This document shows, in pieces, positions 3,379 to 22,981 of a stretch of 64,000 bases of DNA. The notes beneath the pieces are model-generated. The model was not told the origin of the DNA. It searched no databases and saw nothing but the letters and a program-made list of their open reading frames with translations. The stretch lies in the NCBI RefSeq assembly GCF_037392515.1, contig NC_090291.1:30738001-30802000 (forward strand), read 5' to 3'. Source of the DNA: Haliotis asinina. Taxonomy: Eukaryota; Mollusca; Gastropoda; Lepetellida; Haliotidae. A program made the position numbers and the translations under genes. Numbering within the stretch: position 1 is the stretch's first letter; each line of letters starts with the position of its first letter.

Positions 3379-3668
3379 TTAAGGAATAAATTCTATCAAC
3401 CTGATAGCAGTTTTCTGACAGCCTATTTTCTTCAGTGACAAAATCAAATCTCTCAAACTAAACCTTGGATTTCTTTGCAACAAATCATTGATGACACACA
3501 TACAATATTCATTGTTGTCTTGTTCATTGTTCATATTGTATTCCAATTTTAAATCTCGAAGTTGTTCAACATTCATTTCGACTTCTACAGCCAAATCCAT
3601 CCACTTTGGGCCAATGTCACCCGCGACCAATTCAACATGGTTAATATCTATCACTTCCCCTCTGTCTA
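3379..3668 (-). CDS. RIPK1-like: RIPK1-like exon N: C-terminal death domain and stop
   Basis: 290 nt, phase 1 in, ending in TAA at 3381-3379. Reads INHVELVAGDIGPKWMDLAV (death-domain helices 1-2 with the conserved Trp), then VEQLRDLKLEY, YCMCVINDLLQRNP and SLRDLILSLKKIGCQKTAIR, an L..AL...G....A pattern at the end as in RIPK1, FADD and TNFR1. Acceptor has a long pyrimidine tract. A polyadenylation hexamer AATAAA lies 37 nt beyond the stop at 3342-3337, and others further off. Confidence 0.88.
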
Positions 3669-6600
3669 CTGAAAAAAAAGAAAAAAGAATTCTGAAAAAT
3701 TATAATACATATGAATCATATCTAATACACATTCTAATATTTGATCATCAAATCAAAAATAAGTTTGTGTGCTGACACAGATGCAGGTCTGTTTGCAGGT
3801 CTCATGGGCATCGTCTATTTTTATTTTAAGCTGATTTGTTGAATCATATTGATTGTCTAATGCATTTATTTGTCCATGGCACAGACCAGATAAGTACACA
3901 AGAAAATTGACGTAATCATTTATTGAGAAAATCACAGACAAATTAATTGCATAGGTACATAAAATGAATATCATTATGTTGACTTCAGATTCCTAATGTA
4001 ATTGGTAAATTTTCTATTTTAAATATTTTACAAGAAGAATACGTAAATGGTTAGAAAAAGTCCCATTTTGCAACACTGGATGAAAGCTTATGTCAGCCTG
4101 ATGAATTATTGATGAATGCCCATGTTAAGTGACTGAGTGAGTATATTTTTATGTTGCACTCAGCAATATTCCAGCTAAGGGGCTGGGGTCTGTAAATAAA
4201 TGAGTACAGACCAGACAATCTAGTGATCAACAGCATGGAAACTGATCTACACAACAGAGATACGATGATGTGTCAAATAAATCACTGAGTCTGACCAAAC
4301 GATTCCATTAGTCGCCTCTTAAGACAAGCATGGGGTGCATAAGATCAGTTCTAACCCGTATCTACATGGGTCACACCTATCAGAACTGTCATGACCAAGT
4401 AAAAACTAGTAAGCAATATTTGAACGTACTAGTTCAGCTTTTCCATGGAGATTCAAGTTCGATCTTGTGGACCTAAAAGATAAAGTTTTCTCTTGAGTAA
4501 CATACTTCAGTGTTGTTTTAAACAGAAATAATATAACTCATTAATGTAGGAACCAAATACCAAAATGAACATCTACAGATCATGCTGGTGAAGAATAACT
4601 ATATTCATTGTCTAAATGTACTAATTGTTGGAGCCCATCACGCAAAAGACCCGGGTTCGATTCCCCATATGGGTACAATGTGTGAATCCCAGTGTGACCA
4701 GCCATGATGTTGCTGGAATATTGCTTAACTGCGAAAGGCGACATAAAACCATACTCATTCCCTCATTACTTGCCAGGATTCCATGTTGGATTCTTAACAC
4801 AGTTTTACTGTTCTATGTTTTACTGTTCTAAATAAGCAGAAATGAGCAGAAATGAAACAAAATACAGAAAACTATAAAATAAGACACAAGAGTCAGAAGC
4901 TCTTGCTCAAAGTTTTGAAAACAAACAACAGTTAAGCATTTGGCTGTAGTCACTTTTAGCTTGGTAACAGTGTTTCTACAGCAAAACACTGCTCTATGCA
5001 ATAAACAAGAAGATGTCATCCATATGCGTTAACTGCTTCATTTTTAATGTCAAACAAGATTCTGTTGAAGTTGAAGGAACCTTCGTAACTAAGAGAACTC
5101 CAAAGGTTATGTGATAAATGAGGGTCAATGAGTGAGTGAGTGAGTGAGTGAGTGAGTGAGTGAGTGAGTGAGTGAGTGGGTGGGTGGGTTGGTGGGTGAG
5201 TGAGTGAGTGCATAGATAAGTATGTGCATAGGTGAGGGAGCGAGTGAGTGCATAGGTGTGAGTCAGTGGGTTGGTATGTAAGCGAGTGCATATGTGAGTG
5301 AGTAAGTGAGTGAGTGAGTTCAGTTTTACGCCGCACTCAGCAATATTCCACATATATATGCGGCAGTCTGTAAATAATCGAGTCTGGACCAGACAATCCA
5401 GTGATCAACAACATGAGCATTTATCTGCACAATTGGGAACCGATTACATGTGTCAACCAAGTCAGCGAGCCTGACCAACTGATCCCGTTATTTGCCTCTT
5501 ATAACAAGCATGGTCGCCTTTTATGGCAAGCATGGGTTGCTGAAGGCCTGTTCTACCCCAGGACCTTCACAGGGTGCATATGTGAGTGAGTGCATAGGTG
5601 AGTGAGTGAGTGAGTGAGTGAGTGAGTGAGTGAGTGAGTGAGAGTGGATTGGTGGGTTGGTGAGTCAGTGAGTGAGTGGGATTGTAAGTGGGTGTGTGGT
5701 AGTGTTTGTTATTAAAGAGAGAGAAAGAAAAGAGACAATCAGCAAAGCAAATTTAGGGTGAACTGCACCAATGACCACGGACCCCTGACTGGGCTGTGAG
5801 TGAATCATTCACTGATACTAGTATGCCTCTTGATCCCAGTAGACAAAAACAATGAATGAGTGAGTGTGGTCTTTCATAGCTTTTAGCAATATTCAAGCAA
5901 TATCATGGTGGGGAACATCAGAAATGGGCTTCAACGAAAAACTAACAAAACCATCAATGTATATAAATGTCTGACAAAAATCCCAAACTTACCAACACTT
6001 CTGTGCTGCTTAGACATTTTCTTGAACTTTGACCTGGAATCAGCGGACATCTTGTGTGTACCCCCAGTACCACCCATGCTGCTGCTGCTGCTGCGGTCAC
6101 TACCACCCATCATATTACCATCTTCGTCATAGTTCAGTACCATCACATTGTTCTGCCCCAATTGTACCCCAGGCGGCAGTGTCAGGGGGTTGAAGTTTCC
6201 AGACACTGAACCATCAGGATCTACAGGTTGCAATGACATTTGTATAAAATATTCAAAGGGTAAAGGCAAGAATTTATGGATGTCAATCTCTTCATTTTGA
6301 GGAACATCACGTTTTGAAATATATTTTTTGTCCTGCATCAGGTGAACGAAAAAACTAAGAAACAGATAGCTATAGAAATCCTTGTTTGTTTAAGTCCTAG
6401 AAGTTGACATTCATAAAATCTTGCCTTAATGGGTATCACTACTGCATGGTATTCAAAGACTATTCAAAGGATAAGTTTTCATAAAGAATGAAACTTTTTC
6501 TTATTTCAAACCTGATTGGGTTAGGAATGACTGTGTTGTAAATAATGCAGATATTTTGCTGCATAACAAAGCGGATGGACCTGGTCATTGTTTAGGCAAG

Positions 6601-9600
6601 GGTTGTACATGTGTTTTGCATGACGTGTCAAAAGGAACCTGTTCATTTTTTTATACTTCTCAAAATCTATAAAGGATGTTGATAGGTTTACAGCCATAAC
6701 AAAACACTTTATATTTTTATTTTCAAGATTATTTTAAAGAATTTGTATGTTTCTATTACATAAATACCATATTCAGCAGCAAAATAACATTTTCCAGCAA
6801 AAGATCTATGCCTGAATTATCTGATGATATTCAAACACCATATTCAGCCAGCAGATAGTGTCTGTATATCAATCATATGGCCCGCGTATTGATACACATG
6901 TGCAATGAAGTGAGTAAGTATGATTTTACACTGCTTTCAGCAATATTCCAGCGATATCACAATGAGTGACAACAGAACTGGTTTCACCCATTGTACAAAT
7001 GGGTTTTACATGCCAGGCGAACCCTTTAATCAGTCAGTCAAATGTAGTTGACGTTTGATTTTGGTTTGGTTGTTGCTAAATGCTGCACTCTGCTATATTC
7101 CAGCTCTAAATAACTGAGTTTGCACCAAACAATCCAGTGGTCCACAGTATGAGCACTGATAAATATGATGACACATGTTGACCACATGTACATGGTTGTG
7201 ACCACACCATCTCATTAGTTGCCTTTTATGACAAGCATGGGTAGCTGATGACCAAATCTAAACCAGATCTTCACAGGTGTATGCTCAAACAAAAATCAGA
7301 GTGGTAACCATGGTAATATTATGGTTACATGACATATACTTACTGAGCTCTACATGGATGGAGTTAGGATCATTACGGAACTGAAAGTAAATATTGCGAT
7401 AAATTACTTCCAGAGCAATATTATCGACATGTCTGCATGGTTGATAATTTTCTCCATCCTTCTAAAAGTTGAACATTATTTTCCATATTGAACAGGTAAT
7501 CATGAACCAATATCATTTGTATATGTTTTCTAAAATATATAGAAAAAAATGGCCAGGGATGTGGAATGTATTGCTGGATATTTTATGTCAAGTCATCACA
7601 AAAAAACACAACAAACATGAAATAAATCATGATTCTCAACTTGTTTTGTTCAGTATAAAAACTGAGAAAATATATGAGAAATGATATCACATGCAATTAA
7701 CAAATGCTTGATTTGACATCATCAAAAACTTTACTTGGTACATTTGAATACAGAATATGTATGAAAAATGTAAATGTGTTATTACAGTACCTGAAACTGA
7801 TACTGCGTTCCAGATGTTGTGCTGCTACCGGGTTGTGCTCCAGACGATGTACTGCTACCAGCTTGTGCTCCAGATGTTGTGCTGCTACCAGCTTGTGCTC
7901 CAGACGTAGGAGCTGAACCTGCTTGCTGACCTTGACCTGAATGACTCTGACCTTGACTTGACCTTTCACTTTGACCTGCAGAAGAATTCTGGGTCGCCCC
8001 TGATGCTTGACCTTGTGTCATAGATGTTTGACCTTGGCCTGAGGTTGATGTGGGTGTACTTTTGCTTGAACTTGCAGTCTGACTAGTGCTTGCACTTGTT
8101 GTACCTGGGTGTTTAGGGACGTGTTTTAGCATCTTTTGATGACAAACACGATGCTTTTTATTCAAATATGGAAATATCATTACTACACTACCCCAACTCT
8201 CAGTTTGTTCCACACATATTTTTGACCAAGCATGAAAGAAATAAAGAGCTGTGTTAATAACCAATGTCATAAAGGCTTTGTCATTATAACACAGAGAAGC
8301 TCATACAGAGAGAGACGCTCATACAGTGATGAATGCCTTTTATTAGCCAGAAGGTAATTGTATAATTACCTGGTTTATTGAGGAAGCCTTTCGGAAAACC
8401 ATACGCTGTCTGTAATCTGCAATCACATACAGAAATAACACTGAAAAGTATACTATTTCACCATCTATATATCTTAATCTTAACTCATTAATAAAAAATA
8501 TAAGCACCTAAGTTGAACTCCATTTGGAAGTTTACCAGGTACATTGCGCTTCAACTTTGCAGAGGAAAAAGAAGCCAAAATGATGCAGTTCTTAGACATT
8601 TACAACTCCGTAGAAAGGAGTGAGTGAGTGAGTGAGTGAGTTAAGTTTTATGCTGCTTTTAGCAATATTCCAGCAATGTCACAATGGTGGACACCAGAAA
8701 TGGTCTTCACACTTTGTGCCCATGTGGGGAATCAAACCCAGGTCTTCAGCATGATCAGAAAACACTTGAACCACCAGGCTATGCCACTGCCTCACAATTA
8801 AACACAAATAGGGGAACCAGGATTTCAGTTATGATCACTGGTTACTTTAGTGCCACAAGTGTAGCCACTATTTTAAAAAAATGCAAGAGGTTGACCATCC
8901 TTCAATACTATTTAAATATAAAGCTTTGCGACCAATAGGGCTTACTAAAAAAGAACTGGCTTGCTACGTGCCTGCATATACAACTTCCAACCTACAACGG
9001 CTAAATGCAGCTATTGGGAGACTTGGCCATTCAACTCCCACTGATGACAAATGGGAAGTTCTCAATTCATCAGTGGTACTAGGAACACGATTGCTTGAAA
9101 GTTGCTTTGCAGTATTGCTTGGGTGTGACATCAGAGCATGTTTAGTGTGAGTACATGTACAGTGGAAGCTGTCATAACCGGCATCTGTCCAATCCAGCAT
9201 GTTGTCAACACTGGCATAAAATCTCACTCCTGTCTCTGGCTTGCACATTTATCATCATCTCTACAATCCGGCACATTGTTCAAATCGGATTATTTGTTCA
9301 GTCCCAGTGAGTGCCGTTTTAGACAGCTTCCACTGCATATTTCAGTGATTGTCAGTGGCAACAGATTGAAAAACACTGTGACCTCCCTAAGCTGCTTACA
9401 ACAAAACTCCATTACAGTACATGACACTTTTGTGAGGAAAGCTCTGCTATGAGAATTTAATTTCAAATTGCTACTGATAATTTACTGTCCTTATGGTTCA
9501 AGATTCTTTGCAAGGTAACAGTTTCTAGATGTCTGGATCCACAAACTTTGGAGTGAGATAAAGGCAATTTGAGGCCTCCTGTGACCTGACTTGGTGTTAC

Positions 9601-12600
9601 TGTTACTGACAGTAAACCCAATCCTTTCTTGTTCGAAAGTAACATGCTAATTATTTGTGATCTTCTACGGTAGACTGTTTATACATATGGTATAGTGACT
9701 GTGTCTCATGTATACATAAGGTTCAGTGTCTGTGCATCTGTGCATACTTACGGCTCAGTGTCTGTGTGCCTCTGTACAGGCATCTTGATATTCTCCTGCC
9801 GTTTCACAAGATGGTCATCTGGTAAACCCTGAATCTCACGCTGTATCAAGAATATAAAGCTAGCTGAATTAATTGATATGTATCATATCTAGTGTCAGTT
9901 GATTTGAACTGCTCCTACCCCAAAAGACATTCCTACAAATTCTTTGGCAGAGGCAATGGAAAGAATGATATTTTAAATTTTTGTCATGCAGTGCATTTTT
10001 TCTCCATTACTGATAATGGAAAATAGAACCATTGTATCTCCATCAGTGACTTACCCTCTCAGGTTCCTGCTTTTCTTCGCCAATAACACCTGCACCACCA
10101 ACACTTGCATTAACACCTACAGCAGCAGCACCCACTGCTGACCCTGCAGTCGAGGAGATATTGGTGGTAGCAGTCTTGGAACCTGTGTTGCTAATTGTTA
10201 TGGAGGATTTCAAAGGTGTTGTTCCTGATTTGGTAGCACTTGCATTGTTGGTGGCAGCAGTGGTGTTAGAAGCAGGGGTAGTGGTGTCTCCCTTTGGGCC
10301 AGCGTTGGTGGCAGAGGTGCTGCTGGTAGAAGTGTTGGAACTAGCGGTTGTGGAGACTAACGCTTGTGGGTTGTTTGTGGGTTTGGACATAGCGTTGGTG
10401 GCAGCGGTGCTGCTGGCAGAAGTGTTGGAACTAGCGGTTGTGGAGACTAACGCTTGTGGGTTGTTTGTGGGTTTGGACATAGCGTTGGTGGCAGCGGTGC
10501 TGCTGGTAGAAGTGTTGGAACTAGTGGTAGCAGAGGCTGAAACTGATGAGTTGCTTGGGGGTTTGGACACAGTGTTGGGTCTTGATGATGAGGGAGGGTT
10601 ATAAATGGAACCAGGCAGTCCGGGGTTCTTCAGCATGTCCACTGCAGAAGGAAGAAAAGTATGCATGAAGATGGGAGTCATCTGATACTTTGACTAAAAA
10701 CTGATTAAAATAAAATGAGAGAGAGGATGAGCAAATACATCATGTATAATACATCACAGTATAAATGTGGCCTTATAAAGGTCAGGGACAACAATAACTG
10801 AATTTAAAGATCATCCTATAACATGTACTCAAGTGCACCAATACTTGGGTAATCATGGAAATGATGCATACTGCCACAAATTGTTGTTAAGACGTCATGC
10901 TGAGTTGACCAGAGAATTGGTGGGGGGCGGGGGAAGGGTTGGTATTGCTAACTAGCTTGAGTCACTGAGTGAGTTTAGTTTTACGCCGCACTCAGCAATA
11001 TTCCAGTTATATGGTGGTGGTCTGTAATTATCCAGTCTGGACCAGACAATCCAGTGATCAACGACATGAGCATCGATCTGTGTAATTGGGAACTGATGAC
11101 ATGTGTCAACCAAGTCAGGGAGCCTGACCACCCGATCCCATTATTCGCCTCTTACGACAAGCATAGTCGAATTTTATGGCAAGCTTGGCTGGCTGAACGC
11201 CTATTCTACCCCGGGATCTTCACGGGTCGCTGACTAGCTTGATGAATTGTTAACTGGCATTGTCTGGACTAGATACATACAGACCACCATCAGTGCTGGT
11301 GGTCCAGGCATGTAACTGCATCAAGTAAACAGTTGAAGCAAAAACTCAAAGAAGCCTAATGGTTCTAATAACAGTATTTGTCTAGGCAAGATATTCACAG
11401 ACCACCATCCTATGCCTGGAGAGCTGTTCAGTGTCACTTGAAACAACAAATACTTCCAAAAACTGAAGGTGGACTGAATCTGACTTACTCAGTTTCATGG
11501 TCTACTTGAGGCATTCATATGGTCTGACTTACTCAGTTTCATGGTCTACCTGAGGCATTCATATGGTCTGACTTACTCAGTTTCATGGTCTACCTGAGGC
11601 ATTCATATAGTCTGACTTACTCAGTTTCATGGTCTACCTGAGGCATTCATATGGTCTGACTTACTCAGTTTCATGGTCTACTTGAGGCATTCATATAGTC
11701 TGACTTACTCAGTTTCATGGTCTACTTGAGGCATTCATATAGTCTGACTCAGTTTCATGGTCTACTTGAGGCATTCGTATAGTCTGACTCAGTTTCATGG
11801 TCTACTTGAGGCATTCATATAGTCTGACTCAGTTTCATGGTCTACTTGAGGCATTCATATAGTCTGACTCAGTTTCATGGTCTACTTGAGGCATTCATAT
11901 AGTCTGACTCAGTTTCATGGTCTACTTGAGGCATTCATATAGTCTGACTCAGTTTCATGGTCTACTTGAGGCATTCATATAGTCTGACTCAGTTTCATGG
12001 TCTACTTGAGGCATTCATATAGTCTGACTCAGTTTCATGGTCTACTTGAGGCATTCATATAGTCTGACTCAGTTTCATGGTCTACTTGAGGCATTCATAT
12101 AGTCTGACTCAGTTTCATGGTCTACTTGAGGCATTCATATAGTCTGACTCAGTTTCATGGTCTACTTGAGGCATTCATATAGTCTGACTTACTGAGTTGC
12201 ATAGTGTGTCTGTGGCATTCATATAGTCTGACTTACTGAGTTTCATGGTCTACTTGAGGCATTCATATAGTCTGACTCAGTTTCATGGTCTACTTGAGGC
12301 ATTCATATAGTCTGACTTACTGAGTTGCATAGTGTGTCTGTGGCGTTCATATCTTTCTGGGTACATCATCATCTCGTCCTCCAGGTCCATGTCCATCATC
12401 TCGTCCTCCAGTCCCCGGTACATCCCTGGCATCCTGCTGAAACAGAGGCAGCAGCTGGGTTGCACAAGGCTTGATACAGTGCTTCACTTGACGGCAGGAT
12501 TACTTGAACTTCAGTCATGAAAGCTAAAACTGTCCAGGTATAGTTAGAAAAGCACCCAGTACCACTGGTACACTTAGTAATCAGTGCTAAAACAGACAAT

Positions 12601-15600
12601 GTCAGAATTGCATGCAACTTGCATCAATGTTTTAAGATGAGGGTTTAAAGTTGGTATATTTTTATCCTGACGAAAACCTAAAAGTTTTCCTTATGGTACA
12701 ATTAAAATATGTACCCAGTACCAAGGCACTTATTAAACATTTTTCACTCATTAACGCAGAAAATGTACGCTATCATACAAACATACATGTACACATATTG
12801 TATAATACTATTCCTTGCATATATATCAGACAAAGGGCCTTGGGATGGGGTGTCACCAAAGTTCCCAAATAGAACGTTTTCAATCTCAACTGTTCAATAT
12901 AAGGGCTGATTTGTTATCTATGACCAATGGTATCATGAGATACCTGCCACAGAGGAAATTTCTGAAGAGCATGTTTGGTCACTAGTCAGCTTGCATACAG
13001 ATTGATTATTGTCCTAATCGTTGACCAATCGATATGCTGGATTTCGGCCTTAACAACTCTAGCTATCATGAAAAAGTTTGCGTGTCATGAACATACATAA
13101 TAGTAAGGATGCCTGAAATGTACACATAGGACTAACAAGCTCTTTGGCGAGTTGATTTTTTCTTAAAGAGCTCGAAGCGCTACAATCCAATTATCATTAC
13201 CCCTGATAACCCAATCCAGCCATTGAGTAGAGATAGCATTTATTTTCATATACACTACTTGTACATCAAACATAATGGCTTGCTAAACATTTCAATATTA
13301 TTTGCACATTGTTATGAATGAATATCATTATTCAAGTACATGTATTGTAGAATTCAAAAAGTGACACGATGCTGATTTATTATAATGCATACACTTGCAG
13401 TTGAATCCCCCCAAACATTTATGAAGATGGACATGCCTATATTTGTTTTGAATGCAAACGAGGTTCAGAAGATTGATAATAGGTGTGACTCCATAAAACA
13501 GGTTGTCCAATGATATAACAATGGAACAGTTTGTTTTACATTTGTCAAGGGACAAAGCTTAACCTGGACATGCATTCTGCCAGAGGCTGTTATTTTGAGG
13601 TTGAAAGAGGTGTTCAAAATACCTCATTAGTGTTGTCTGATTGAATGATTATATGCATCAATTCCGTAACTGATATATTATCCTCATTTTATTGACAATG
13701 GATCTGATACATGTGATCATTACACTGGATAAGATAATTACAGAGATCAAATACAAATGTTTCCGACACAATGCTTATGTAAATTGCATTGAAAAATCAC
13801 ATTTCAAATCAACATGAAACTTTCAACAGCTTGAACAAAATGTTCCAGTTACCTTTGTATGGTGTATGTGTAATATATAGAAGGTTTTGTAACCTTGTCA
13901 CCATTAATTCAATCAATGTGCAAAGATAGTATTTTGGTATTCACTCCCAATGACGAGTAACAAACACTTACTTCCTGTAACAACATCTCATAATCCCCTT
14001 TCTCGCAGACGTGTGTTCATTTACCTGTATAAGCCCATGACATTGCTACCAATTGTTATCAAAACACTTTGATACTTTTTCTGATTAACACAGAAAGTAA
14101 CCTCTCTCGTAAGAAAAGCTAATCTTTGATCATTACTGCTAAATTGATTGAAATAATAGGTACAGTATGAATATAAAATGTAAAACGCATATGTGAGTCT
14201 CTCGCTGAATGAGAGGTACTTTCTGCTAATGAACATGTGCGGCTCTTGCTGAATACGAGGTGCTTTTATTACCGCCCATACGCGTCTCTTGCTTTGAGAA
14301 GCTAATTTATTTGACGCGTCTCTCGGCCTTAATGAGCTAACACAGATGTGGTAGCAGAGGTGCATCCAACTTACAACTGTTTTCAGATGAGGGTTTAAAG
14401 TTCTTGTATTGTAGTGCTCATGGCAAGCTAAAACTGTAATGATACATATAAAATATGTACCCAGTACCAATGGTCCAGCTAGTGAACAGTGTTAACACAT
14501 AGGCAGTAGTTGAGTAGCATGCAACTTGCAACTGTTTCCAGATGAGGATTTACAGTTCTTATATTTTAGTGCCCGTCTCAAGCTAAAACTGTAACAGAAC
14601 AGCTAACATAAGTAACCACTAAACAGTGACTAATGGGTACATGTAGACATTACTTACAACAACAATTTATCTATATCATACCAGTGAGAAATGCAATATC
14701 ACACACAAATGATTAAAAATACCCATGAATCTAAGGCACAGTATGATGTCCAAAATATACACATATTCCACTGTATGGAAAGGAAGTGGACAACTAACAC
14801 CACCAGCTTTACAATTAGACTGGTAACATGACATTCCATGAAGGATCAAGGGACACAACTCTGACGTGGTATCTGCAGTGCCTAAGTGCATGTCCCATCA
14901 ATGCCACTGTTTGTAGAAATGAGTGAGTGAGTGGGTTGAGTTGAGGCTCTACACTGCTTTTAGCAATATTCCAACAACATCATGGCAAGGACCTCCGAAA
15001 ATGGGCTTCACACATTGTGCACAGGTCAAGAACACATTCAGATGAAACAGGCTGACACATACATAACATGTGATTGAGGAAGGGTGTCCCCTGCCTCAGT
15101 CAACCTTACTCCCTACCTCCTAGGTCCTCTCATGTGGCGCATGTGATAAGCCTTGGGTCCGCCTGACCGAGCAACAAGCTTCATCAAAGCCCCCTTGTCT
15201 GTAGCTTGAAGGATTTCCAGAAGCATTGGGTCCTGCTTCATGTACAGAAGCAGCTTTTCAGGATCTCGGATTACGTCCATCACCTCCCGATCCACCGGAT
15301 TGATCCTTGGGGGTGTCTCCTCACGTAGCAGATATCTGAAACACACACATTCCTCACTGTTTGTACCTACTGAAAGAGTGGCATGTGTGTTAATTTTAGG
15401 GGTGAGCAAAATGTACCATCCTTTTACCTGCAAGATGAGTCTCTGATGGACAATGCAGAAGACAAACATGGTAAAAATGTCTGTGACACAAAACAAACGT
15501 TGACAAAAAATGTAACATGTAGGTCTGTCAAATAATTTGTAAACATTGTCTACCTAATTCTAATTATGACAGAAACTATGCAAACCTGATCATCTGAGGA

Positions 15601-18600
15601 TCGCGAAGTGCTCTCTTGAGTTTGTAGCTCATATCAGGAGATAAACTGTCTGCCCCCATACGAATCCGCATAGCCATCATGTCTCTGTATGCTTCTTCTT
15701 CATGGTCCCTGTACCGGGACATAGGATTCTTAACTATCCTCTTAGGCTTCTCCTTCTTAAACAGTCCAATGAACCCAGATGCTAGACTCTTCTTTTCCCT
15801 GAAGTCCAAGTTAGGATCCTTGCTCTCTCTCTTCTGTCGTTCCTCTCTCAACCTCTTCATTCTTTCCACTGCTTCTGGTTTTGGAGTCCGGTTTGGCCTC
15901 TTTCTTCTGATTTCATCCTTCATCCTGTGTGGAAAGAAAAGCCAACCTACATGTTCTGCTCCTTTCCTCTTAAGCTCCATCCTGAGGAGTGGATCCTTTT
16001 CCACAAGCTTCAAAAGCTCCTTGGGGTCTTTAATCTTCTTCTGAAGCTCCAGGTCAACGCCAAACACCTTTTTACACAGCTGAGCATCTTTGTGCAAGAG
16101 AAGCATCCCTACTGGATCCCGAAGTACACGTCGAAGGGCTTTCTCCTGTTCTTCGGTCATCACAAAAGGTGCTGGTGTAGCAGCTGTTGCTGGTGTAGTG
16201 GTAGTTCCTGATGTTGACGGCCCAGATGTTGCTGTAGATGGCGTTGCCTTAGCTGTTGTTGTTGTAGCTGTGGGTGCAGCTGCTTTAGCTTGAGTGTTAG
16301 CCTTGGCTTGTGATGAAGATGCTGCAGAGTCAGCATTTGTTGCAGATGATGTAGATGCTGTAGATGCTGTAGATGCTGTAGATGCTGTAGATGTTGAAGA
16401 TGCTGTAGGTGCTTTAGATGATGTGGATGAGGCAGCAGTTGTTGATGGACCTGGACGATGTCCAGGAGCCTCTTCATCCTGCAATCCTACAATGGGCTGA
16501 CTCTGTCCCTTTGGAACAGAAGGTCCTGTTGTTTGAGATATATCCTCTTCTTCACCAATGTCCTCCATTTCAACACTCTGAGGACTTGTTGTGGAGAGGT
16601 CAGTAAGTGGCTTAGTGAGTTTGGTTGCTGCATCAAAAATACTCTCAGAATCAGCAGTAGCTGCAGTATCACCTCCAAGATCTTCGGCATCCTGGATAGA
16701 AAGAAACACAGTCTTGATTTTGAAAAGATGGCCTTTCCTCTTACAGCTTATCCAAAACAATTGGGTTCTATAAGGGTAAGAAACTTTTATCATTGGCTTC
16801 TTTATTCTATTACAATGAAAGGTTGGGACAGACCCTCACACCAATATCAAAGGCTCAATTTTGGTTTTGTTGTATGTACATAGTGCTTTCAGCTTACATG
16901 TTAAGTCAGTCTGTTTGTTAGCAATACATTTTCTAGCAAACATGATGGCTGGATAACTTGATACAATCACCTAAAAATGACAAACAAGGATAACAATACA
17001 TGGATGAACAAGTTCTTTTAGTACAGAGTGACATTTCTGTGTAGGTTACAGTTATCAAGCAAGCTGTTCATCCATTCATTGTTTCTTTTATCTAACTTCA
17101 ACATGCCTCTCAAAGATGTTCATCTTAAACAAGAGAGAAAATTTTCATTGTTGGAAAAAAAGATATGGTTGTTTGTATTTTTTCTGTTTAAAGCTGCACT
17201 CAGCAACATCCAGCTTAATAATGGACCAGACCATCTAGTGATCAACATCATGAGCATCAATATACATGACTGGGATAGGATGGCATACGTGAGTCAAGTC
17301 AGTGAGTCTGACCACCTGACCCTTTAGTTGCATCTTACAGCTAAGCACTTGCTGAAGACCAAATCCAGCCCTGGGCCCAGATTTTCAAAACTCTCTTAGC
17401 TATAGGACAGTCGTACATTAATGTAAATGCATGGCACTTAAGAAAGCTTCAGAAATCTAGGCCTGACCCTCATGGATAGGACTAATATATGCATCACTTA
17501 TATCACATAAGAGTTTCTCTCACATATAGCTTTGCAATCTCTTCCTCCAGTTTCCGTAAGGCCTCTGGCACTGCAGGTGCAAGCTTCTCAAACAAAGAAT
17601 CAATCTCCACTTTCATTTCTGGAAGGATAAGAAAATATAGATATCAAACATGCCCATTTCTCTCCATTAATGATTATTCTGTTCTAATCTTTGCTGCTTC
17701 AACGAGACGTATTAAATCTGTTGTAAATGTTACATATTAAAAGTGACTGACTTTACCTATCTAATTTTGTCATGTAAAACATAACTCAACATAAAAAAGT
17801 GAAAAAAAAACCATTCTTGACTTTCTAAGACTTTCGTAAATCAAAGTATTGAAGAAAACAAACTTTAATAATACTAATATAGGAGATATGAGCAGCAGTT
17901 ATTCTGAATTGTGCAGTTATTTGCTCTGAACTCTTGGATGGAATTAATACCTGCAAAGTAACACATTATATTTGGGGTTCCACTTTCTCAGTGAAGTACA
18001 GATTCTATTGCTTTTGTTGGGTTGAATCCTATCTGGGATTTGAAGTTGAACCCACACTCTGAGACACAGGCACCTAATCACAAAGTCCTTCATTTAACTC
18101 ACTCAGCCACTACAGGGTGCTGGCAGTTAGGAGAGTGGTTTTGAATCACGCCTCTTACCACAAGCATGAGTTAGTGAAGATCAATTCTGATCTTCATCTT
18201 CCTGGGTCAAATATAACATGTATTACATTTATAGAAAATATACTCTTAAAAAAAAAGTAGGGGATAATGAACTTTCAATTTGGATGGGAATTGTAAACAT
18301 TAACAAACATTTCAAGGACAGACTTTTTATGAACGCATTACCATTTCCCTCTATTACCACCCCTAAACACAAAGCATGATATGCATGTGCACGACGCAGT
18401 AACCCCATACACGTGCATGGGGTCCCATTCTTGATTTTGACGTTTTTTCAAGGTCTAGAAATCACTAAGAACATTAATTTTGACACTCATCTTGTATCAC
18501 ACATTTTTAGTGTTTGTTTCTAGTCATTTGTTTTAAAATGAAAATATTATACATGCAAATTACATGCCATGCACAAATCATCTTTCAAAAGTGACTACAT

Positions 18601-21600
18601 TCCAAATAACTGTGGTTGTAAGGAAGAGCAAATGGTGATGCACTCTCAAAACATTCAGTAATATCATATCAACATTAATTGACTCCAATAAATCTCCTAA
18701 ATATTTTTAATCGTAAATAAATAAAAAGGAAGATCTCCTACTTTTTTTTAAGAGTGTACTAAATGATGTCCTGTGATGTAACTTGAATCACTTTACGCAC
18801 GACATCATGTGATGTTATTACACAATAATGTGTAAAAACATTTCAAAATTATGAAAAAGGCATATCTTCAACCAGTGAGGAATAAGATCACTTTCTACAG
18901 GATATGGTGTACTCTACCTGTGAAGGTCGGTCTCTTTTCTGGTTGTTGCGTCCAGCAGCGGGTCATCAACTCCATCACCTCTGGAGGACACTGGGAAGGG
19001 ATCATGGTCATGTCGGGTCTCTGACCACTCAGCACAGCCTTGGGGATGATGTCATCACTCACTCCTGAAGGTCAAAAACTGAGGGCATGAGTATATTCCA
19101 GCATTTCTTTCATTATGATATATACTATCAGTGACAGCTGCTCCAATCAAATAAGCCTTGTCAATGTTTAACCCAGACCTACAAAACCTGGGGTCAAAGG
19201 ACTCTCGATCTTTGAGTAGTGAGTGAGTGAGTTATACCCTTGTGAAGATTTGAACCCAGGTCTTTGTCAAGATGTGCAAAAGCCTTAACCACAAGAGTAA
19301 CCCACCGTCCCCTTCTATCATTAATATCAAAGTTCGTCACATGGAGGGTTTGTGTCAGCCACTTCTTGACAACACATTACTCTTACCAGAGACCATATAC
19401 TGGCATATGGTCTCTGCTCTAACCATGTGATCGTGACCATTCAGCTTTCAGTAGATACAACATAGGACCTAATCTGTTTAAGGTCCTAATAGATTCCTCA
19501 TCATGGTTCATGGTATATGAACTTACTAGCATAAGGCCTTTCTCCAACCACTGTCTCCAACTGTCCAATGGGTATCAAGTCTTTGAAGGGCATTTAGAAG
19601 TGAAATGCATAAGAATACATGGTAAAGGACCCAGCTGTGAACACCCGAACCCCAGAGGATGCATCTACCAGATCCCTTGCAACTGTGGCGACCTATACAT
19701 TGGAGAAACGCTGAGACCAATCAACACCAGAATGAAGGAACACCAGACCTCTGTCAGCAAACTCGACCAGAAATCGGCCATCTCTGAACACATTCTCAAG
19801 AACCCTGGACATTCAATCCGATGGGAGGACACTAGGATACTATCTACCAACAACAACAACTGGCGCCAAAGGAAACTGCAAGAAGCCATCGAGATCTGGA
19901 GACAGAAACCAGCAATCAACCGTGACCAAGGAGTGTACCTACCAAGTGCCTGGAACTTATTGATAAATTAATCTCTTCTATCTGTGTACATTCTATCTAT
20001 GTAATTCATGTATAGCCAATCTACCCGTGTACATCCTTATCTACTTGTGTTTGTACATCATCAACCCCCATGTAAACATGCCCACCAACCCTCATGTAGT
20101 CATGTACATCATCCTTAATCCCCAACCTTATGTAAACATCATCCACCATTGGCTTCCATCCTTATCCCCAATCATGTACATCGTCCTTACCCCCTACCTG
20201 TGTTATGTAAACATATCCCATCATCTGTAATGTATTACTATTGGCTTCTATCATTGTTATCATAACTGTCGGGTTCCAATCAGCGCTTGTTTATACTGGC
20301 TTCCAGCTTTCGTTAATTCATTCCACTTGTTACTTTGTTATTGTTTTACCTGTACATATAAATATAGCTCTGTACCCCATTCTCAATCACCTGATGAAGG
20401 AGTAAGCATTAACTCCGAAACGTTGTGTTCTCATATAAAGAAGTTGATATCCATAAAATCTTCATTCTTGTCCAATGGGTAGCTGGTATATGAACTTAAA
20501 ACTCCAACCACTGTCTCCTATTGTATGATGGGTAGCTGGTATATGAACTTACTAGCTAAAGGACGATCTCCAACCACTGTCTCCTATTGTACGATGGGCA
20601 GCTGTTATATAAACTTACTAGCAAAAGGTCGATCTCCAACCATTGTCTCCTACTGTCTGATGGGTAGCTGGTATATGAACTTAAAAGCAAAAGGCCAATC
20701 TCCAACCACTGTCACCTACTGTCCGATGGGTAGCTGGTATATAAACTTACTAGCAAAAGGTCGATCTCCGACCACTGTCTCCCACAGTACAATACCAAAG
20801 CTGTAGACATCATATCCCTTGTTGGGAGGAGTGTTGATGTTGTTCCACACTTCGGGTGGTACGTGGGTGACTGTACCCTTCCTCCCCTTCTCATCCCCAC
20901 CCTGGTTCCTCGTCATGGTCCGTGTCATCGTCTTCCATTGAGACAGACCAAAGTCTGTGATCTGTTATGAGATACAAAATTGTATAATGAAGGTCACTGA
21001 GATGCTCCAGCATACCTTAGATCTCATATAAGTGGTAACATCAGACATGGAGATGAGAGCTCCTTTAAATACATAAAAGTAACTGATATGCTTAGCCCTA
21101 CCTGACCTGTGAAAATCTGGGGTAGAGTAGGTCTTCAGCATCCCATGCTTGCCATAAAAGGCAACTCACTACTGGGATCGGGTGGTCAGGCTTGCTGACT
21201 AGGTTCACACATGTGAACAGTTCCCAACTGCACAGACAGAAGCTCATGCTGTTGATCACTGCACTGTTTGGTCCAAACTCGATTATTTACAGAGCGTTGC
21301 CATATATGTGGAACATTGCTGAATGTGGTGTAAAACTAATTCACTCACTCACTCACTCACTCAGACCTACCTTAGCTCTGATTCTTCTGTTGATAAGGAT
21401 GTTGTCCGACTTCAGGTCAAGATGGAGGATTGGTGGATCAGGTTCATGCAGATACGCCAACCCACTGATTACATCACGAATTATACTGACCAGCAGTGAC
21501 CAGTCAATGTCTACAAAGTCAGAGCGGAAAGCCGTGAGACTGCCGAAATGCATATACTCCAGAATGAGGGAGTAATTGTTTTCCTCCATGATGAGGCCAA

Positions 21601-22981
21601 GCAGACGCACAATGGAGGGATGCTGGAGCTCCCAAAGTTTCTTACCCTCAGACTTGAAGACTCTTTGATGCCTGTTTACAAATGTGGAGTGAGGTTAGTT
21701 CAGTTAAATTGTATCTTGCGCTGCAACGATCCATACAGAATCTCACCCAAGTGTCTACTGATATCAAATATATCAACACGAGTTGATAGAGTAACAAATA
21801 TCCAAGGCATGCCGACGATATTTTTACCTTTATCAACGAGTATTGATATAACTGATATCAGTAGACATGAGGGTGAGCTTCTATTTATCATGCAAAATCC
21901 AAAAAAAAAAAAATGTACATGTCTGAACACAGTACTGACATTATATATGTAGTGCAGCAATGTCAGAGCATTGTGACATCAACTTCATGACATCATAGCA
22001 CTGTCAGGGCATTGTACAAAATCTACTGTCAAAACAATATATCCTAGGAGATTTGATCTCACACATATAATCTCTCCTGTGGAACACAGTTTTGGATGAT
22101 ACAGTATAATTCATTGAAAACTGAATCTAACACCATAGTTTCGATTTTCACTAACCATCATCTCTATTTCAGTTCAATATATGAGTGCTGTTCTGTGTTT
22201 AAACATCATATTTTTTGCTTGGAAAAAGCTCCATCATTTACATTCCTGATGTCCCGGGCAAATCTTCTAAAACGTTTCTGTGTGATATGTTTTGTTTAAA
22301 AAACTGAGAGAGTTATATGAAATCTGATGTTTTACTTGTATGAAGAATTGATCGAAATGATTGAATCAGTGGTCAAGTATAAAAAATCGAATCAAGGTCT
22401 GGGTAAATTGTAGTAAAAGCAGTATGTGGATAGTGGCATATATTCTTCAAATTAGATAGAAAATTATTTCACAGTCATCATATGAGCTTGTCTGATGACT
22501 TTCATCATAGTATCAAAAATTGCCTAGAACTCACGTACTGTTGAGTTTTCTGACACCAGCTTACTCCTTGCATGATTTACAGCAGATATTGATTTTATAA
22601 TCTGCTTTATTATCAGCTGTGAATACTTGCGTCATGTGAATTTTACTAGACATGGGCGTCAGACTACTTACTACAGTTGTAGACTGATGTCATTACTGTT
22701 TCTACTACGCTAGAATATTGTAAAAAGGATCTTGTCCTTCAGATCAACAGTGTTTGTTTTGTCTTATGAGTAATCGAGTTTTATGTTTACAACTTATCGG
22801 CTACTTACCTTGCTGGCAGAAGACCATCAGAGATCATTGTTTTGATGGCAACAGTGCCGAGATCCTTGTGGACACCTCGGTACACATAACCGTAGCCACC
22901 ACGGCCAATGGGGGTTTCATCATACTTGATGTCCTTGGATGATATCTTTGGAATTTCACTAACATCACTGCTTGAAGCCAT
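3379..22981 (-). CDS. RIPK1-like: RIPK1-like receptor-interacting protein kinase (whole gene, 14 coding exons)
   Basis: Predicted cytosolic Ser/Thr kinase adaptor of death-receptor/NF-kappa-B/necroptosis type signalling. Domains seen in order: TKL-class kinase domain (about residues 20-280; glycine loop GRGGYGYV, VAIK lysine 47, HLDLKSDN with Asp143, DFG at 161-163, PPE in place of APE at 193-195), coiled acidic linker, a long intermediate region of low-complexity and RDP-type repeats, a RHIM (VQLGQNNVM) and a C-terminal death domain. Known RIPK1 has the same order kinase-intermediate-RHIM-death domain but is about 670 residues; this one is about 1,340 because the intermediate region is expanded. 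Start ATG at 22981 is preceded by a good acceptor (5' UTR intron). Exon phases agree through exons A-J and M-N; junctions J/K and L/M are uncertain and a small exon may be missing. RIPK1 orthology rather than another RIPK is inferred from the joint presence of RHIM and death domain. Confidence 0.88.
4126..4386 (+). mobile_element. family 2 dispersed repeat copy
   Basis: GACTGAGTGAGTATATTTTT, GCACTCAGCAATATTCCAGC, GACCAGACAATCTAGTGATC and GTCGCCTCTTAAGACAAGCA. Confidence 0.7.
4620..4775 (+). mobile_element. tRNA-derived SINE with CACTC tail (family 1), plus orientation
   Basis: B box GGGTTCGATTCCCCA, then TGGGTACAATGTGTGAA, then GCTGGAATATTGCT and a GCGACATAAAACC-ACTCATTCCCTCA tail. Lies in the kinase gene intron between exons N and M. 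Confidence 0.7.
5127..5320. repeat. GTGA/GTGG microsatellite
   Basis: Pure GTGA run, then GTGG, then mixed GTGA/GCATA units. Another pure run is at 5595-5642. It is the variable end of a family 2 repeat. Confidence 0.85.
5290..5585 (+). mobile_element. abalone-type dispersed repeat (family 2), near full length
   Basis: GAGTGAGTTCAGTTTTACGC, CGCACTCAGCAATATTCC, GAGTCTGGACCAGACAATCC, CAACATGAGCAT, GTGTCAACCAAGTCAGCGAG, CTTATAACAAGCATGG, and ACCTTCACAGGG at the end. About 280 bp, no ORF of its own. Preceded by a long GTGA microsatellite (5127-5320). Confidence 0.75.
5855..5937 (-). mobile_element. family 1 SINE fragment
   Basis: GAATGAGTGAGTG, TTTTAGCAATATTC, then ACATCAGAAATGGGCTTCA. It touches the 3' edge of the RHIM exon's intron. 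Confidence 0.55.
5993..6332 (-). CDS. RIPK1-like: RIPK1-like exon M: RHIM exon
   Basis: 340 nt, phase 0 to phase 1. Codons at 6167-6141 read VQLGQNNVM, matching the RHIM pattern (I/V)-Q-(I/L/V)-G-x-x-N-x-M of RIPK1, RIPK3, TRIF and ZBP1, which forms hetero-amyloid signalling fibrils. Flanks are FNPLTLPPG before and VLNYDEDGN after. A Ser-rich and then basic segment (SKFKKMSKQHR) leads to the death-domain exon. Donor G/GTAAGTTTG is strong. Confidence 0.85.
6905..7010 (-). mobile_element. family 1 SINE fragment
   Basis: GAAGTGAGTAAGTATGATTT, CAGCAATATTCCAGCGATAT, then the CCCATTGTACAAATGGG region. Minus orientation, next to a family 2 copy. Confidence 0.55.
7050..7280 (+). mobile_element. family 2 dispersed repeat copy, diverged
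   Basis: GCTGCACTCTGCTATATTCC, ACCAAACAATCCAGTGGTCC, GTTGCCTTTTATGACAAGCA and ATCTTCACAGG. Confidence 0.6.
7344..7380 (-). CDS. RIPK1-like: RIPK1-like exon L: 12-codon micro-exon
   Basis: 37 nt between acceptor TACTTTCAG and a near-consensus donor A/GTAAGTAT; reads FRNDPNSIHVEL. Phase 0 fits exon K. It leaves in phase 1, but exon M opens in phase 0, so either a further small exon lies between 6333 and 7343 or this exon is skipped. Confidence 0.6.
7791..8104 (-). CDS. RIPK1-like: RIPK1-like exon K: Gln/Gly/Ser-rich exon
   Basis: Reads low-complexity Gln/Ser/Gly, ending with four tandem copies of SGAQAGSST-type sequence and YQFQ before donor GTACTG (phase 0). The 5' edge is not settled: the best-looking acceptor (edge 8104) breaks phase with exon J, whereas an acceptor with edge 8082 keeps it but lacks a pyrimidine tract. 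A missing small exon is the other explanation. Confidence 0.65.
8618..8800 (-). mobile_element. family 1 SINE, nearly full length, minus
   Basis: Begins (plus strand) with GTGA repeats, then TTTTAGCAATATTCCAGCAA, GTGGACACCAGAAATG, a GGGGAATCAAACCCAGG B-box complement and CAGGCTATGCCACTGCCT. Sits between kinase exons K and J. Confidence 0.7.
9160..9335. mobile_element. pogo/Tigger-like MITE
   Basis: 176 bp with about 25-bp terminal inverted repeats: CAGTGGAAGCTGTCATAACC at the left, complement of AGACAGCTTCCACTG at the right. CAGTGG starts and TA-rich flanks are typical of pogo-group elements. No coding capacity. Confidence 0.7.
9752..9840 (-). CDS. RIPK1-like: RIPK1-like exon J: short charged exon
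   Basis: 89 nt, phase 0 to phase 2, between acceptor TTGATACAG and donor GTAAGTATG. Reads REIQGLPDDHLVKRQENIKM then PVQRHTDTEP. No known motif. The phase fits exon I upstream; the link to exon K works only with an unusual acceptor. Confidence 0.72.
10055..10641 (-). CDS. RIPK1-like: RIPK1-like exon I: Ser/Thr/Asn/Ala low-complexity exon with 30-residue repeats
   Basis: 587 nt, phase 1 to phase 0. Starts DMLKNPGLPGSIYNPPSSSR and is almost wholly Ser, Thr, Ala and Asn. A 90-bp unit (30 residues, core SKPTNNPQALVSTTA) is present in two nearly identical copies plus a partial third between 10316 and 10510, so the exon contains a coding minisatellite. Ends KQEPER before donor GTAAGTCAC. Confidence 0.8.
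10958..11234 (+). mobile_element. family 2 dispersed repeat copy, well preserved
   Basis: TTTAGTTTTACGCCGCACTC, GTCTGGACCAGACAATCCAG, ATGAGCATCGATCTGTG, CCACCCGATCCCATTATTCG, GGGATCTTCACGGGTC. Between kinase exons I and H. Confidence 0.75.
11486..12310. repeat. 40-44 bp minisatellite derived from exon H 3' end
   Basis: About 20 units: first a 44-bp form (with GACTTACTCAG), then a run of 40-bp units (GACTCAG) that are almost identical. In minus sense ATATGAATGCCTCAAGTAGA and CCATGAAACTCAGTAAGTCA match the last 35 nt and donor of exon H (ATATGAACGCC, CAACTCAGTAAGTCAGAC). Most 40-bp units have lost the donor's GTAA. Confidence 0.85.
12321..12436 (-). CDS. RIPK1-like: RIPK1-like exon H: acidic methionine-rich exon
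   Basis: 116 nt, phase 2 to phase 1. Reads SRMPGMYRGLEDEMMDMDLE then DEMMMYPERYERHRHTMQL, with an internal near-repeat LEDEMM. Acceptor CTGTTTCAG, donor CTCA/GTAAGTCAG. Its last ~35 nt plus the donor are the seed of the 40-44 bp tandem array at 11486-12310. Confidence 0.75.
12511..12720. repeat. interspersed repeat, copy 1
   Basis: Contains AGCTAAAACTGTCC, CACCCAGTACCACTGGTACA and TTTTAAGATGAGGGTTTAAA. The same segments recur at 14335-14640, in the same gene's intron. Confidence 0.6.
14335..14640. repeat. interspersed repeat, tandem copies 2 and 3
   Basis: Two consecutive units of about 165 bp: TTCAGATGAGGGTTTAAAGT, GCTAAAACTGTAATG, TACCCAGTACCAATGG; then TCCAGATGAGGATTTACAGT, GCTAAAACTGTAACAG. 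Confidence 0.6.
14918..15060 (-). mobile_element. family 1 SINE fragment
   Basis: GAGTGAGTGAGTGGGTTG, TTTTAGCAATATTCCAAC and GGGCTTCACACATTGTGC, just outside kinase exon G. Confidence 0.55.
15117..15335 (-). CDS. RIPK1-like: RIPK1-like exon G: fourth RDP-type repeat
   Basis: 219 nt, phase 2 in and out. Reads RYLLREETPPRINPVDREVM, then DVIRDPEKLLLYMKQDPMLL, continuing the RDP repeat series, and ends in a basic tail. A TAG would be read directly after the exon if the intron were retained; the donor GTAGGG in the same place restores a phase that matches exon H, so I take the splice as real. A shorter isoform ending here is possible. Confidence 0.78.
15586..16691 (-). CDS. RIPK1-like: RIPK1-like exon F: large intermediate-region exon with RDP-type repeats
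   Basis: 1,106 nt, phase 0 to phase 2. Starts DAEDLGGDTAATADSESIFD, runs through an acidic region, then Ser/Thr/Ala low complexity (STASTASTASTAS), then three copies of a helical motif of the form (R/K)DP-x-x-(L/M)-(L/I): VLRDPVGMLLLHKD, KIKDPKELLKLVEKDP and ALRDPQMIR. Between the last two lies a strongly basic segment (MKDEIRRKRPNRTPKPEAVE). It resembles no domain I can name; STI1-like helix repeats are a possible comparison. The donor (AG/GTTTGC) is weak, but its phase fits exon G. Confidence 0.82.
17175..17475 (+). mobile_element. family 2 dispersed repeat copy, diverged
   Basis: AAGCTGCACTCAGCAACATC, GACCAGACCATCTAGTGATC, AGTCAGTGAGTCTGACCACC; the end merges with unrelated AT-rich sequence. 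Confidence 0.55.
17524..17618 (-). CDS. RIPK1-like: RIPK1-like exon E: post-kinase helical linker
   Basis: 95 nt, phase 1 to phase 0. Reads EMKVEIDSLFEKLAPAVPEA followed by LRKLEEEIAKLY, a charged amphipathic helix expected just after the kinase domain. Donor GTGAGAG, acceptor CTTCCAG. Confidence 0.85.
17960..18125 (-). mobile_element. diverged copy of the Leu/Ser-tRNA SINE
   Basis: Shares the tail (CACTTTCTCAGTGAAGTACA), the TTGGGTTGAATCC box and the AACTCACTCAGCCAC head of the family, in minus orientation, inside the kinase gene intron between exons D and E. Confidence 0.6.
18126..18215 (+). mobile_element. family 2 fragment
   Basis: CACGCCTCTTACCACAAGCA and GATCAATTCTGATCTTCATC correspond to the last third of family 2. 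Confidence 0.45.
18241..18758. mobile_element. Tc1/mariner-type internally deleted element
   Basis: About 518 bp, TA at both ends, inverted ends TACTCTTAAAAAAAAAGTAG and (complement) TACACTCTTAAAAAAAAGTA. No transposase remains. In the kinase intron between exons E and D. Confidence 0.7.
18918..19064 (-). CDS. RIPK1-like: RIPK1-like exon D: kinase C-lobe end
   Basis: 147 nt, phase 1 to phase 1. Reads RVSDDIIPKAVLSGQRPDMT and CPPEVMELMTRCWTQQPEKR, then PTFT. This is the conserved end of TKL kinase domains (CW...P..RPTF) and corresponds to GNRPDVDDITEYCP...CWEANPEARPTF in human RIPK1. Confidence 0.9.
19215..19310 (-). mobile_element. family 1 SINE head fragment
   Basis: GTGAGTGAGTGAGTTATA followed by a GATTTGAACCCAGGTCTT B-box complement and AAGCCTTAACCACAAG; the middle is deleted. 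Confidence 0.5.
19575..20468 (+). mobile_element. 5'-truncated Penelope-like retroelement (GIY-YIG part and 3' tail)
   Basis: About 894 bp flanked by a 13-bp target-site duplication (TGTCCAATGGGTA at 19562-19574 and 20469-20481). The open part to 19971 reads RGCIYQIPCNCGDLYIGETL then RPINTRMKEH, the GIY-YIG endonuclease pattern that follows the reverse transcriptase in Penelope-like elements. The reverse transcriptase is absent. The non-coding 3' end holds a hammerhead-like motif and repeats at 42505-42590. It inserted inside the exon-C array in the kinase gene, antisense to the gene, and is a relic. Confidence 0.82.
20469..20750. repeat. tandem array of exon-C 3' ends with splice donors
   Basis: About 66-bp units, four beyond the true exon end, plus a displaced one at 19507-19574 on the far side of the Penelope-like insertion. 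In minus sense each unit contains GGAGACAGTGGTTGGAGATC, the codons of ETVVGDRPFA, and in most the GCTAGTAAGT donor. Confidence 0.85.
20751..20961 (-). CDS. RIPK1-like: RIPK1-like exon C: activation loop to kinase helix F
   Basis: 211 nt, phase 0 to phase 1. Begins ITDFGLSQWK (DFG motif), then a basic/threonine-rich activation loop, VPPEVW in the APE position and DVYSFGIVLWE, the classical TKL helix-F motif. Donor is GCTA/GTAAGT. The last ~40 nt and the donor are copied several times in the intron just downstream (see array at 20469-20750). Confidence 0.9.
21100..21365 (-). mobile_element. family 2 dispersed repeat copy
   Basis: Minus orientation: GGGGTAGAGTAGGTCTTCAG, CGGGTGGTCAGGCTTGCTGA, GTTGATCACTGCACTG, ACATTGCTGAATGTGGTG, ending in CACTCACTCACTCACT right at kinase exon B's donor. 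Confidence 0.7.
21371..21671 (-). CDS. RIPK1-like: RIPK1-like exon B: kinase N-lobe to catalytic loop
   Basis: 301 nt, enters in phase 2 and leaves in phase 0. It carries the probable alpha-C glutamate (FKSEGKKLWEL, about Glu66), the hinge (LILEYMHFGSL) and the catalytic loop HLDLKSDNIL with Asp143, Lys145 and Asn148. HLDLK with Ser-Asp-Asn is typical of TKL/RIP kinases, so the site looks active. Donor is GTAGGTCT. Confidence 0.9.
21742..21877. mobile_element. short foldback element
   Basis: 136 bp with about 46-bp arms: CTCACCCAAGTGTCTACTGA, TATCAAATATATCAACACGA at the left and their near-complement at the right (CAGTAGACATGAGGGTGAG). Lies just beside the acceptor of kinase exon B. Confidence 0.65.
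22809..22981 (-). CDS. RIPK1-like: RIPK1-like exon A: start codon, glycine loop, VAIK lysine
   Basis: 57 codons plus 2 nt. It begins MASSSDVSEIPKISSKDIKY and contains GRGGYGYVYRG (glycine-rich loop, residues 26-36) and TVAIKTM, whose Lys47 is the ATP-anchoring lysine. Donor GTAAGTAG follows; phase 2. In mRNA sense an acceptor ending TTACAG lies about 25 nt before the ATG, so the 5' UTR is split. Confidence 0.9.

Follow-up and report, generated by a model that had tools for sequence, protein, structure and literature searches.

Does a 64,000-nucleotide stretch of the Haliotis asinina genome (hereafter the window, C12:30738001-30802000) encode one RIPK1-type kinase that ends in a RHIM and a death domain, and, if so, would necroptosis be its output? 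The preliminary description of the locus had proposed the first, regarding this three-part architecture as unique to RIPK1 in vertebrates, and had seen in the animal a test case for necroptosis-like signalling. We examined these proposals with a spliced gene model, profile and structure comparisons, and searches of the genome (1.14 Gb, 159 contigs). The hemocyanin beta-sandwich domain PF14830, a hallmark of molluscs, had 16 matches with E 1.1e-29 or better on a single contig, in support of a molluscan genome.

Gene model and kinase domain

Fifteen exons on the minus strand (22981-3379) were spliced by hand, giving a model, predicted from genomic sequence, with one open reading frame of 1,319 aa (Table 1). 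All 14 introns have GT-AG borders and the phase agrees at every junction, bearing out the coordinates and the in-phase exon joining of the preliminary description. The frame opens with an ATG at 22981, upstream of which lies an in-frame stop, and its stop codon ends at 3379, with AATAAA found 37 nt past it. The domain order of the model, kinase, intermediate region, RHIM and death-fold-like tail, is that of RIPK1.

The kinase domain matched Pfam PF07714 with 161.7 bits (E 2.6e-47). Its best match among solved structures was RIPK1 (162.6 bits), 32 bits above RIPK3 (130.9 bits), with an EGFR entry (134.4 bits) falling between the two; RIPK2 (127.4 bits), a CTR1 entry (125.8 bits) and RIPK4 (120.4 bits) were also matched. 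In the reverse direction, the RIPK1 kinase was compared with 27 whole sequences, 26 of which were loci previously found with the window kinase itself, and the spliced window gene scored 166 bits against 98.6 bits for the next best. When the RIPK1 kinase was searched exon by exon in the genome, 16 places outscored the best window exon (70.7 bits for the best place in the genome; 55.9, 34.3 and 28.6 bits for the window exons); the whole-sequence comparison covered 13 of these places and left out the other three. The predicted window kinase is RIPK1-type: of the sequences compared, it and RIPK1 match each other best. The catalytic lysine (VAIK) is conserved, as are the HLD and DFG aspartates, and APE reads PPE. 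The kinase that had earlier been called active-looking is thus confirmed, as far as its residues predict, as RIPK1-type with the catalytic positions retained.

Two clusters of kinase matches were seen in the genome, one at C10:35563398-35605468 (minus strand) with six adjacent matches of near-equal scores in ORFs of 381-413 aa, and a similar one at C5:13406881-13423724 (plus strand) with seven matches.

Table 1 Features of the predicted window gene and further RHIM candidates in the genome (positions of exons and RHIM core are those of the window).
Feature	Position	Strand	Description
Exon 1	22809..22981	-	Start codon, glycine loop GRGGYG (aa 26), VAIK (aa 44); aligned to RIPK1
Exon 2	21371..21671	-	End of kinase N-lobe through catalytic loop HLDLKSDN (aa 141)
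Exon 3	20751..20961	-	DFG (aa 161), PPE replacing APE (aa 193), DVYSFG
Exon 4	18918..19064	-	Kinase C-lobe
Exon 5	17524..17618	-	Final residues of kinase match and next segment
Exon 6	15586..16691	-	Ser/Thr/Ala-rich linker 1 (~aa 310-490), first DP-containing repeat (from ~aa 490)
Exon 7	15117..15335	-	Most of second DP-containing repeat, which starts at the end of exon 6
Exon 8	12321..12436	-	Met/Asp/Glu-rich segment; alternative acceptor possible 3 nt downstream
Exon 9	10055..10641	-	Ser/Thr-rich linker 2 with in-frame 90-bp tandem repeat (3.1 copies)
Exon 10	9752..9840	-	Linker
Exon 11	8370..8416	-	Linker
Exon 12	7791..8104	-	Gln/Ser/Gly-rich linker, 30/60-bp tandem repeat
Exon 13	7344..7380	-	Short linker exon
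Exon 14	5993..6220	-	RHIM exon
RHIM core VQLGQNNVM	6141..6167	-	aa 1166-1174
Exon 15	3379..3668	-	Probable divergent death domain and stop codon
Locus A	C16:20751226-20757577	+	RHIM exon near 20751300, IQIGNFNRM, 16.9 bits; then death-domain exons
Locus B	C16:37535510-37537479	+	RHIM VQIGRTNVM, 13.7 bits; death domain 46.6 bits; similar to locus A
TIR/RHIM candidate	C9:37574765-37569355	-	1,017-aa ORF, then RHIM exon VQIGSDGKM ~2 kb downstream
SAMD9-like/RHIM candidate	C16:18134876-18130003	-	VQIGNHNQ exon ~0.5 kb before 1,430-aa ORF

RHIM and probable death-fold tail

VQLGQNNVM, read from the exon immediately before the last one, fits the RHIM core pattern [IV]Q[ILV]GxxNx[MLI] as printed in PMC9440496. 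The third residue of its tetrad VQLG is Leu, compared with V/I-Q-V/I-G as defined in PMC12119088, the accessible part of which also reports naturally varying RHIM tetrads in RIPK3. Pfam PF12721 (cut-off 20 bits) gave 11.1 bits (E 0.32) with the whole protein, 15.7 bits (E 0.011) with exon 14 and 17.4 bits (E 0.0033) with a 26-aa peptide, so that the cut-off was reached in none of the three forms, and the motif is absent from the 11 genome-wide matches to the same model at E up to 10. Two further RHIMs in the genome look canonical in their core and yet fall short of the same cut-off (16.9 and 13.7 bits), suggesting that it is a poor judge here. Shuffling of the whole protein (20,000 shuffles) produced an RHIM-like pattern in 0.14% of cases with a looser and in 0.03% with a stricter pattern, and shuffling of exon 14 (300,000 shuffles) in 0.017% with the looser one. 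The RHIM of the preliminary description is therefore retained for its position and core, while its Pfam scores (11.1-17.4 bits against 20) stay below the cut-off.

Pfam Death matched the last exon alone with 16.0-16.4 bits (E 0.010-0.013; cut-off 22.6) over model positions 8-79 (72 of 86 positions); the search with the whole protein, at E up to 10, listed no match to this model. On the 96-aa form of the exon, Transposase_23 scored nearly as high (15.0 bits, E 0.023; cut-off 21) in a 15-residue match, which was gone with the 89-aa form. AlphaFold2, run without an alignment, gave four helices at low confidence (mean pLDDT 56.2). In a Foldseek search with this low-confidence model, the best eight of 57 matches were death domains, RIPK1 being second, and 16 of the best 50 of the 57 were death-domain entries, four of them MBP fusions; no match was better than E 1.2, and the TM-scores of the top eight were 0.25-0.34 (query length).

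In hhalign the last exon scored 12.7 against a profile of four RIPK1/adaptor death domains, compared with at most 9.3 in 60 shuffles. A server profile comparison of exon 15 with death domains aligned 30 columns (P 0.14), and BLAST against the death domain of locus A gave E 6. Exon 15 was missed at E up to 10 by a profile of RIPK1 and the death domains of this genome, searched against 4,439 ORFs of the window plus loci A and B, and phmmer against solved structures returned no death domain for the RHIM and death exons together or for the death exon alone. Judged from sequence and predicted fold, the last exon probably encodes a divergent death domain. Hence the death domain that had been proposed for this exon survives as a probable divergent fold, unproven, below the Pfam cut-off and more divergent than first described, and the profile searches suggested alongside it came out borderline, both models matching and both under their curated cut-offs.

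Middle region

The kinase is separated from the RHIM by two Ser/Thr-rich linkers and a basic region that is predicted, at low confidence, to be helical. The basic repeat region has no Pfam match and, at E up to 1, no genome match besides its own locus. It is internally duplicated: two DP-containing units align over 51-55 residues (BLAST with composition and low-complexity filters off, E 2e-8), and hhalign of the first repeat against the second gave 32.4, compared with a shuffle maximum of 18.4 (n = 100). An AlphaFold2 model of the first repeat, made without an alignment (mean pLDDT 52.7, pTM 0.23), suggests that it is helical. By eye, its DP-containing helices are reminiscent of STI1-type repeats, a likeness to which Pfam gives no support. 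A scaffold or regulatory role is probable for the long linkers and the duplicated helical unit.

Further RHIM, death and partner candidates

Genome-wide, 73 candidates were scored with Pfam RHIM, of which 11 were listed at E up to 10 and four exceeded the cut-off. Three of the 11 (L011, L012 and L015) were kept as plausible; the other eight, including two over the cut-off, were dropped on translation. L010 has a stop inside, L013 begins right after stops, and in L017 a stop breaks the motif off; L016, L018 and L020 are closely similar VQIGTHN stretches, probably one repeat, and L014 and L019 have a poor context. The list of 11 is incomplete, as it missed the RHIM of locus B, found by another search. 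Each of the four candidates in Table 1 (loci A and B, C9, and C16 at 18.13 Mb) was read from genomic sequence as separate exons or ORFs.

At locus A the death domain lies ~6 kb downstream of the RHIM exon and scores 38.6 bits from its second exon; its two death exons, joined by eye, have the RIPK1 death domain as best match (E 4.3e-12). The death-domain score of locus B likewise comes from two exons joined by eye. No kinase match better than E 0.19 was found in 48 kb around locus A or 20 kb around locus B with a profile of 15 sequences, including that of the window, which recovered four of the five kinase-bearing window exons. Drosophila IMD-type adaptors consist of an RHIM-like motif plus a death domain, with no kinase; the window gene has the combination of RHIM and death domain in common with them, and the description as a whole fits loci A and B better. 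Both loci look like candidate IMD-type adaptors in a mollusc, judged from their predicted exons.

The C9 motif scored 21.8 bits with Pfam RHIM in the genome scan and 19.5 bits in its ORF. A stretch of the 1,017-aa ORF may possibly be a TICAM-type TIR domain, which would give a TRIF-like order; neither Pfam nor phmmer supports the TIR reading, and the hhalign score of the stretch against TRAM/TRIF (18.3) was reached by one of 100 shuffles and is not significant. TRIF (TICAM1) is likewise an RHIM protein, and the window gene has no TIR domain according to Pfam. The C16 motif at 18.13 Mb exceeds the Pfam RHIM cut-off in its ORF (22.3 bits), and residues 521-656 of the 1,430-aa ORF match SAMD9 (E 1.3e-8).

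DED domains gave 16 matches in the genome, 10 of them over the cut-off. Z-alpha had a single match, over the cut-off, in a 643-aa ORF at C14:1298621-1298806 (plus strand; 31.7 bits).

Comparison with known RIPK1 and RHIM proteins

According to the portion available of PMC12119088 (eLife 2025), zebra mussel, several other spiralians and lancelets have RIPK1 homologs in which a kinase is combined with an RHIM tetrad and a death domain, and the RHIM is also conserved in RIPK1-like proteins of Lingula. These carry the three parts in one protein, as predicted here, with the tetrad printed as V/I-Q-V/I-G in contrast to VQLG of the window gene; the zebra mussel belongs to the same phylum, and its RIPK1, printed there with accession XP_052232845.1, was compared by published description, not by sequence. 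The kinase-RHIM-death architecture is therefore supported, at the level of predicted proteins, as not restricted to vertebrates. What had been presented as evidence for this trio beyond vertebrates stands as one gene model in RIPK1 order, and the accessible part of PMC12119088 indicates that it is not new; the window gene is a further, gastropod RIPK1 example of an architecture already published for molluscs.

Other sources, as far as their available sections go, differ. RHIM is identified in vertebrate RIPKs only in PMC9573974, whose species list names no mollusc; the deuterostome study PMC11507063 gives no RHIM in starfish or amphioxus RIPK1; and PMC7179693 describes lamprey RIPK1 as lacking an RHIM domain and having an IQIG site. 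The excerpted Aplysia survey (PMC9334734) found no RIPK orthologs, and the nemertean study PMC9835746 states, in the part at hand, that the IMD adaptor and RHIM-bearing PGRPs were not found in molluscs. According to the accessible text of PMC12452177, a bivalve iridovirus encodes a protein, similar to bivalve ones, with a predicted CARD and RHIM; this agrees with RHIM signalling being of importance to molluscs.

Vertebrate RIPK1 shares with the window gene a kinase that is the best match both ways among those compared and an RHIM directly before the C-terminal domain. The window protein is longer (1,319 aa against 671 aa for human RIPK1 in the table given in PMC9573974), adds the two Ser/Thr-rich linkers and the duplicated helical unit and, unlike vertebrate RIPK1, has a probable death domain that the profile search did not recognise as RIPK1-type. 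RIPK3 has a kinase and an RHIM and no death domain; the window kinase is closer to RIPK1, and the tail looks death-fold-like, though sub-threshold.

Alternative readings of the locus and its output

We favour, at a probability of about 0.72, the reading in which one gene at this locus encodes a gastropod RIPK1-type signalling kinase with an RHIM core and a probable death domain. It could instead hold two adjacent genes, a kinase (exons 1-5 or 1-8) and an RHIM/death-fold tail, joined by our splicing only; introns of 0.8 to 2.7 kb set off the kinase, exon 8, linker 2 and the last exon, the middle is partly of low complexity, and the model is built from genomic DNA. We regard this as quite improbable given 14 GT-AG junctions that all keep the phase and an order of parts as in RIPK1. 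Moreover, matches to the repeat region (at E up to 1) and to the RHIM and death exons (next best E 1.32) are confined to this locus, so that neither is a copy from another gene.

Somewhat less improbable, though still unlikely, is that a RIPK-type kinase carries VQLG and terminal helices by chance or as degenerate remnants, with no RHIM or death-domain function. In its favour, the RHIM and Death matches are both under their Pfam cut-offs and the RIPK1-like death domains of the genome are at other loci; against it, an RHIM-like pattern arises in at most 0.14% of shuffles, the elements hold RIPK1-like positions and order, the fold matches are headed, weakly, by death domains, and the shuffle test favours the register.

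A separate matter is whether the kinase would start an MLKL-type lytic death programme, as its RIPK1 architecture and RHIM core might invite one to think. The genome search for MLKL and RHIM partners proposed in the preliminary description gave no MLKL over the cut-off and several further RHIM candidates. MLKL_N had one match, under the cut-off, with E 0.65 and two stops, in a six-frame genome search that ignored introns and was also silent in 14 of 14 control genomes. No RIPK3-like kinase-RHIM gene was recognised in a non-exhaustive search of the genome. The available part of PMC11476962, a survey of 34 metazoan phyla, places protostome MLKL in bdelloid rotifers only and did not detect it in Mollusca, and PMC12119088, within its accessible sections, places the zebra mussel with those species that have not kept the full set of necroptosis proteins. 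Classical necroptosis is an unlikely output, since MLKL was found neither here nor in the molluscs of that 34-phylum survey; a necroptosis kinase is the reading we consider least credible, and the suggestion of necroptosis-like signalling is not supported.

For the single RIPK1-type gene that we favour, the published mussel RIPK1 is the best guide and makes a death-domain and RHIM scaffold kinase acting on NF-kB the most likely function: in PMC12119088, as excerpted, the C-termini of the lizard, lamprey and mussel proteins activated NF-kB less strongly or no longer once their RHIM was mutated. The death fold would couple the window protein to death-domain receptors or adaptors, and the RHIM may assemble in amyloid-like form with itself or with further RHIM proteins of this animal, which would raise NF-kB signalling. 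Kinase activity together with DED/caspase partners could provide a death branch, which the plentiful DED domains make possible. Without MLKL, the output would most likely be NF-kB and possibly caspase death rather than necroptosis.

A broader picture can be offered tentatively, as a possibility that we hold to be doubtful: a gastropod RHIM set without MLKL, comprising the RIPK1-type kinase, two IMD-like adaptors, a TRIF-like TIR plus RHIM adaptor and a SAMD9-like NTPase-RHIM protein, with the window kinase as hub. Such an RHIM hub, leading from Toll/TIR, IMD and death domains to NF-kB, might be ancestral to protostomes and vertebrates, and necroptosis a later add-on. Within the open-licence literature, the window gene adds a gastropod to the short list of protostomes with RIPK1 architecture. 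With other RHIM candidates present in the same genome and no MLKL recognised there, a pre-necroptosis role of RHIM assembly becomes testable. The loci described here are counter-candidates to the absence of RIPKs in the Aplysia survey as excerpted (PMC9334734), and loci A and B to the absence of the IMD adaptor in molluscs stated in the available part of PMC9835746, for the adaptor part only. What makes the locus interesting is the duplication in its middle domain, together with the RHIM candidates elsewhere in the genome.

Repeats within the locus

A 66-bp tandem array (window 20502-20790, 4.4 copies) is located where exon 3 ends; its unit looks, by eye, like that exon end including the splice donor, and the array may thus offer alternative donors. 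Another partial copy of the unit is found near 19520-19580. In intron 3, an open frame of 182 aa (19423-19971, plus strand) resembles, by eye, the GIY-YIG endonuclease of a Penelope-like retroelement. A 40-bp minisatellite of 20 copies (11487-12317) starts beside the donor of exon 8. The in-frame 90-bp repeat of exon 9 spans 10301-10578 (90% matches), and given this repeat the length of the linker may differ between alleles.
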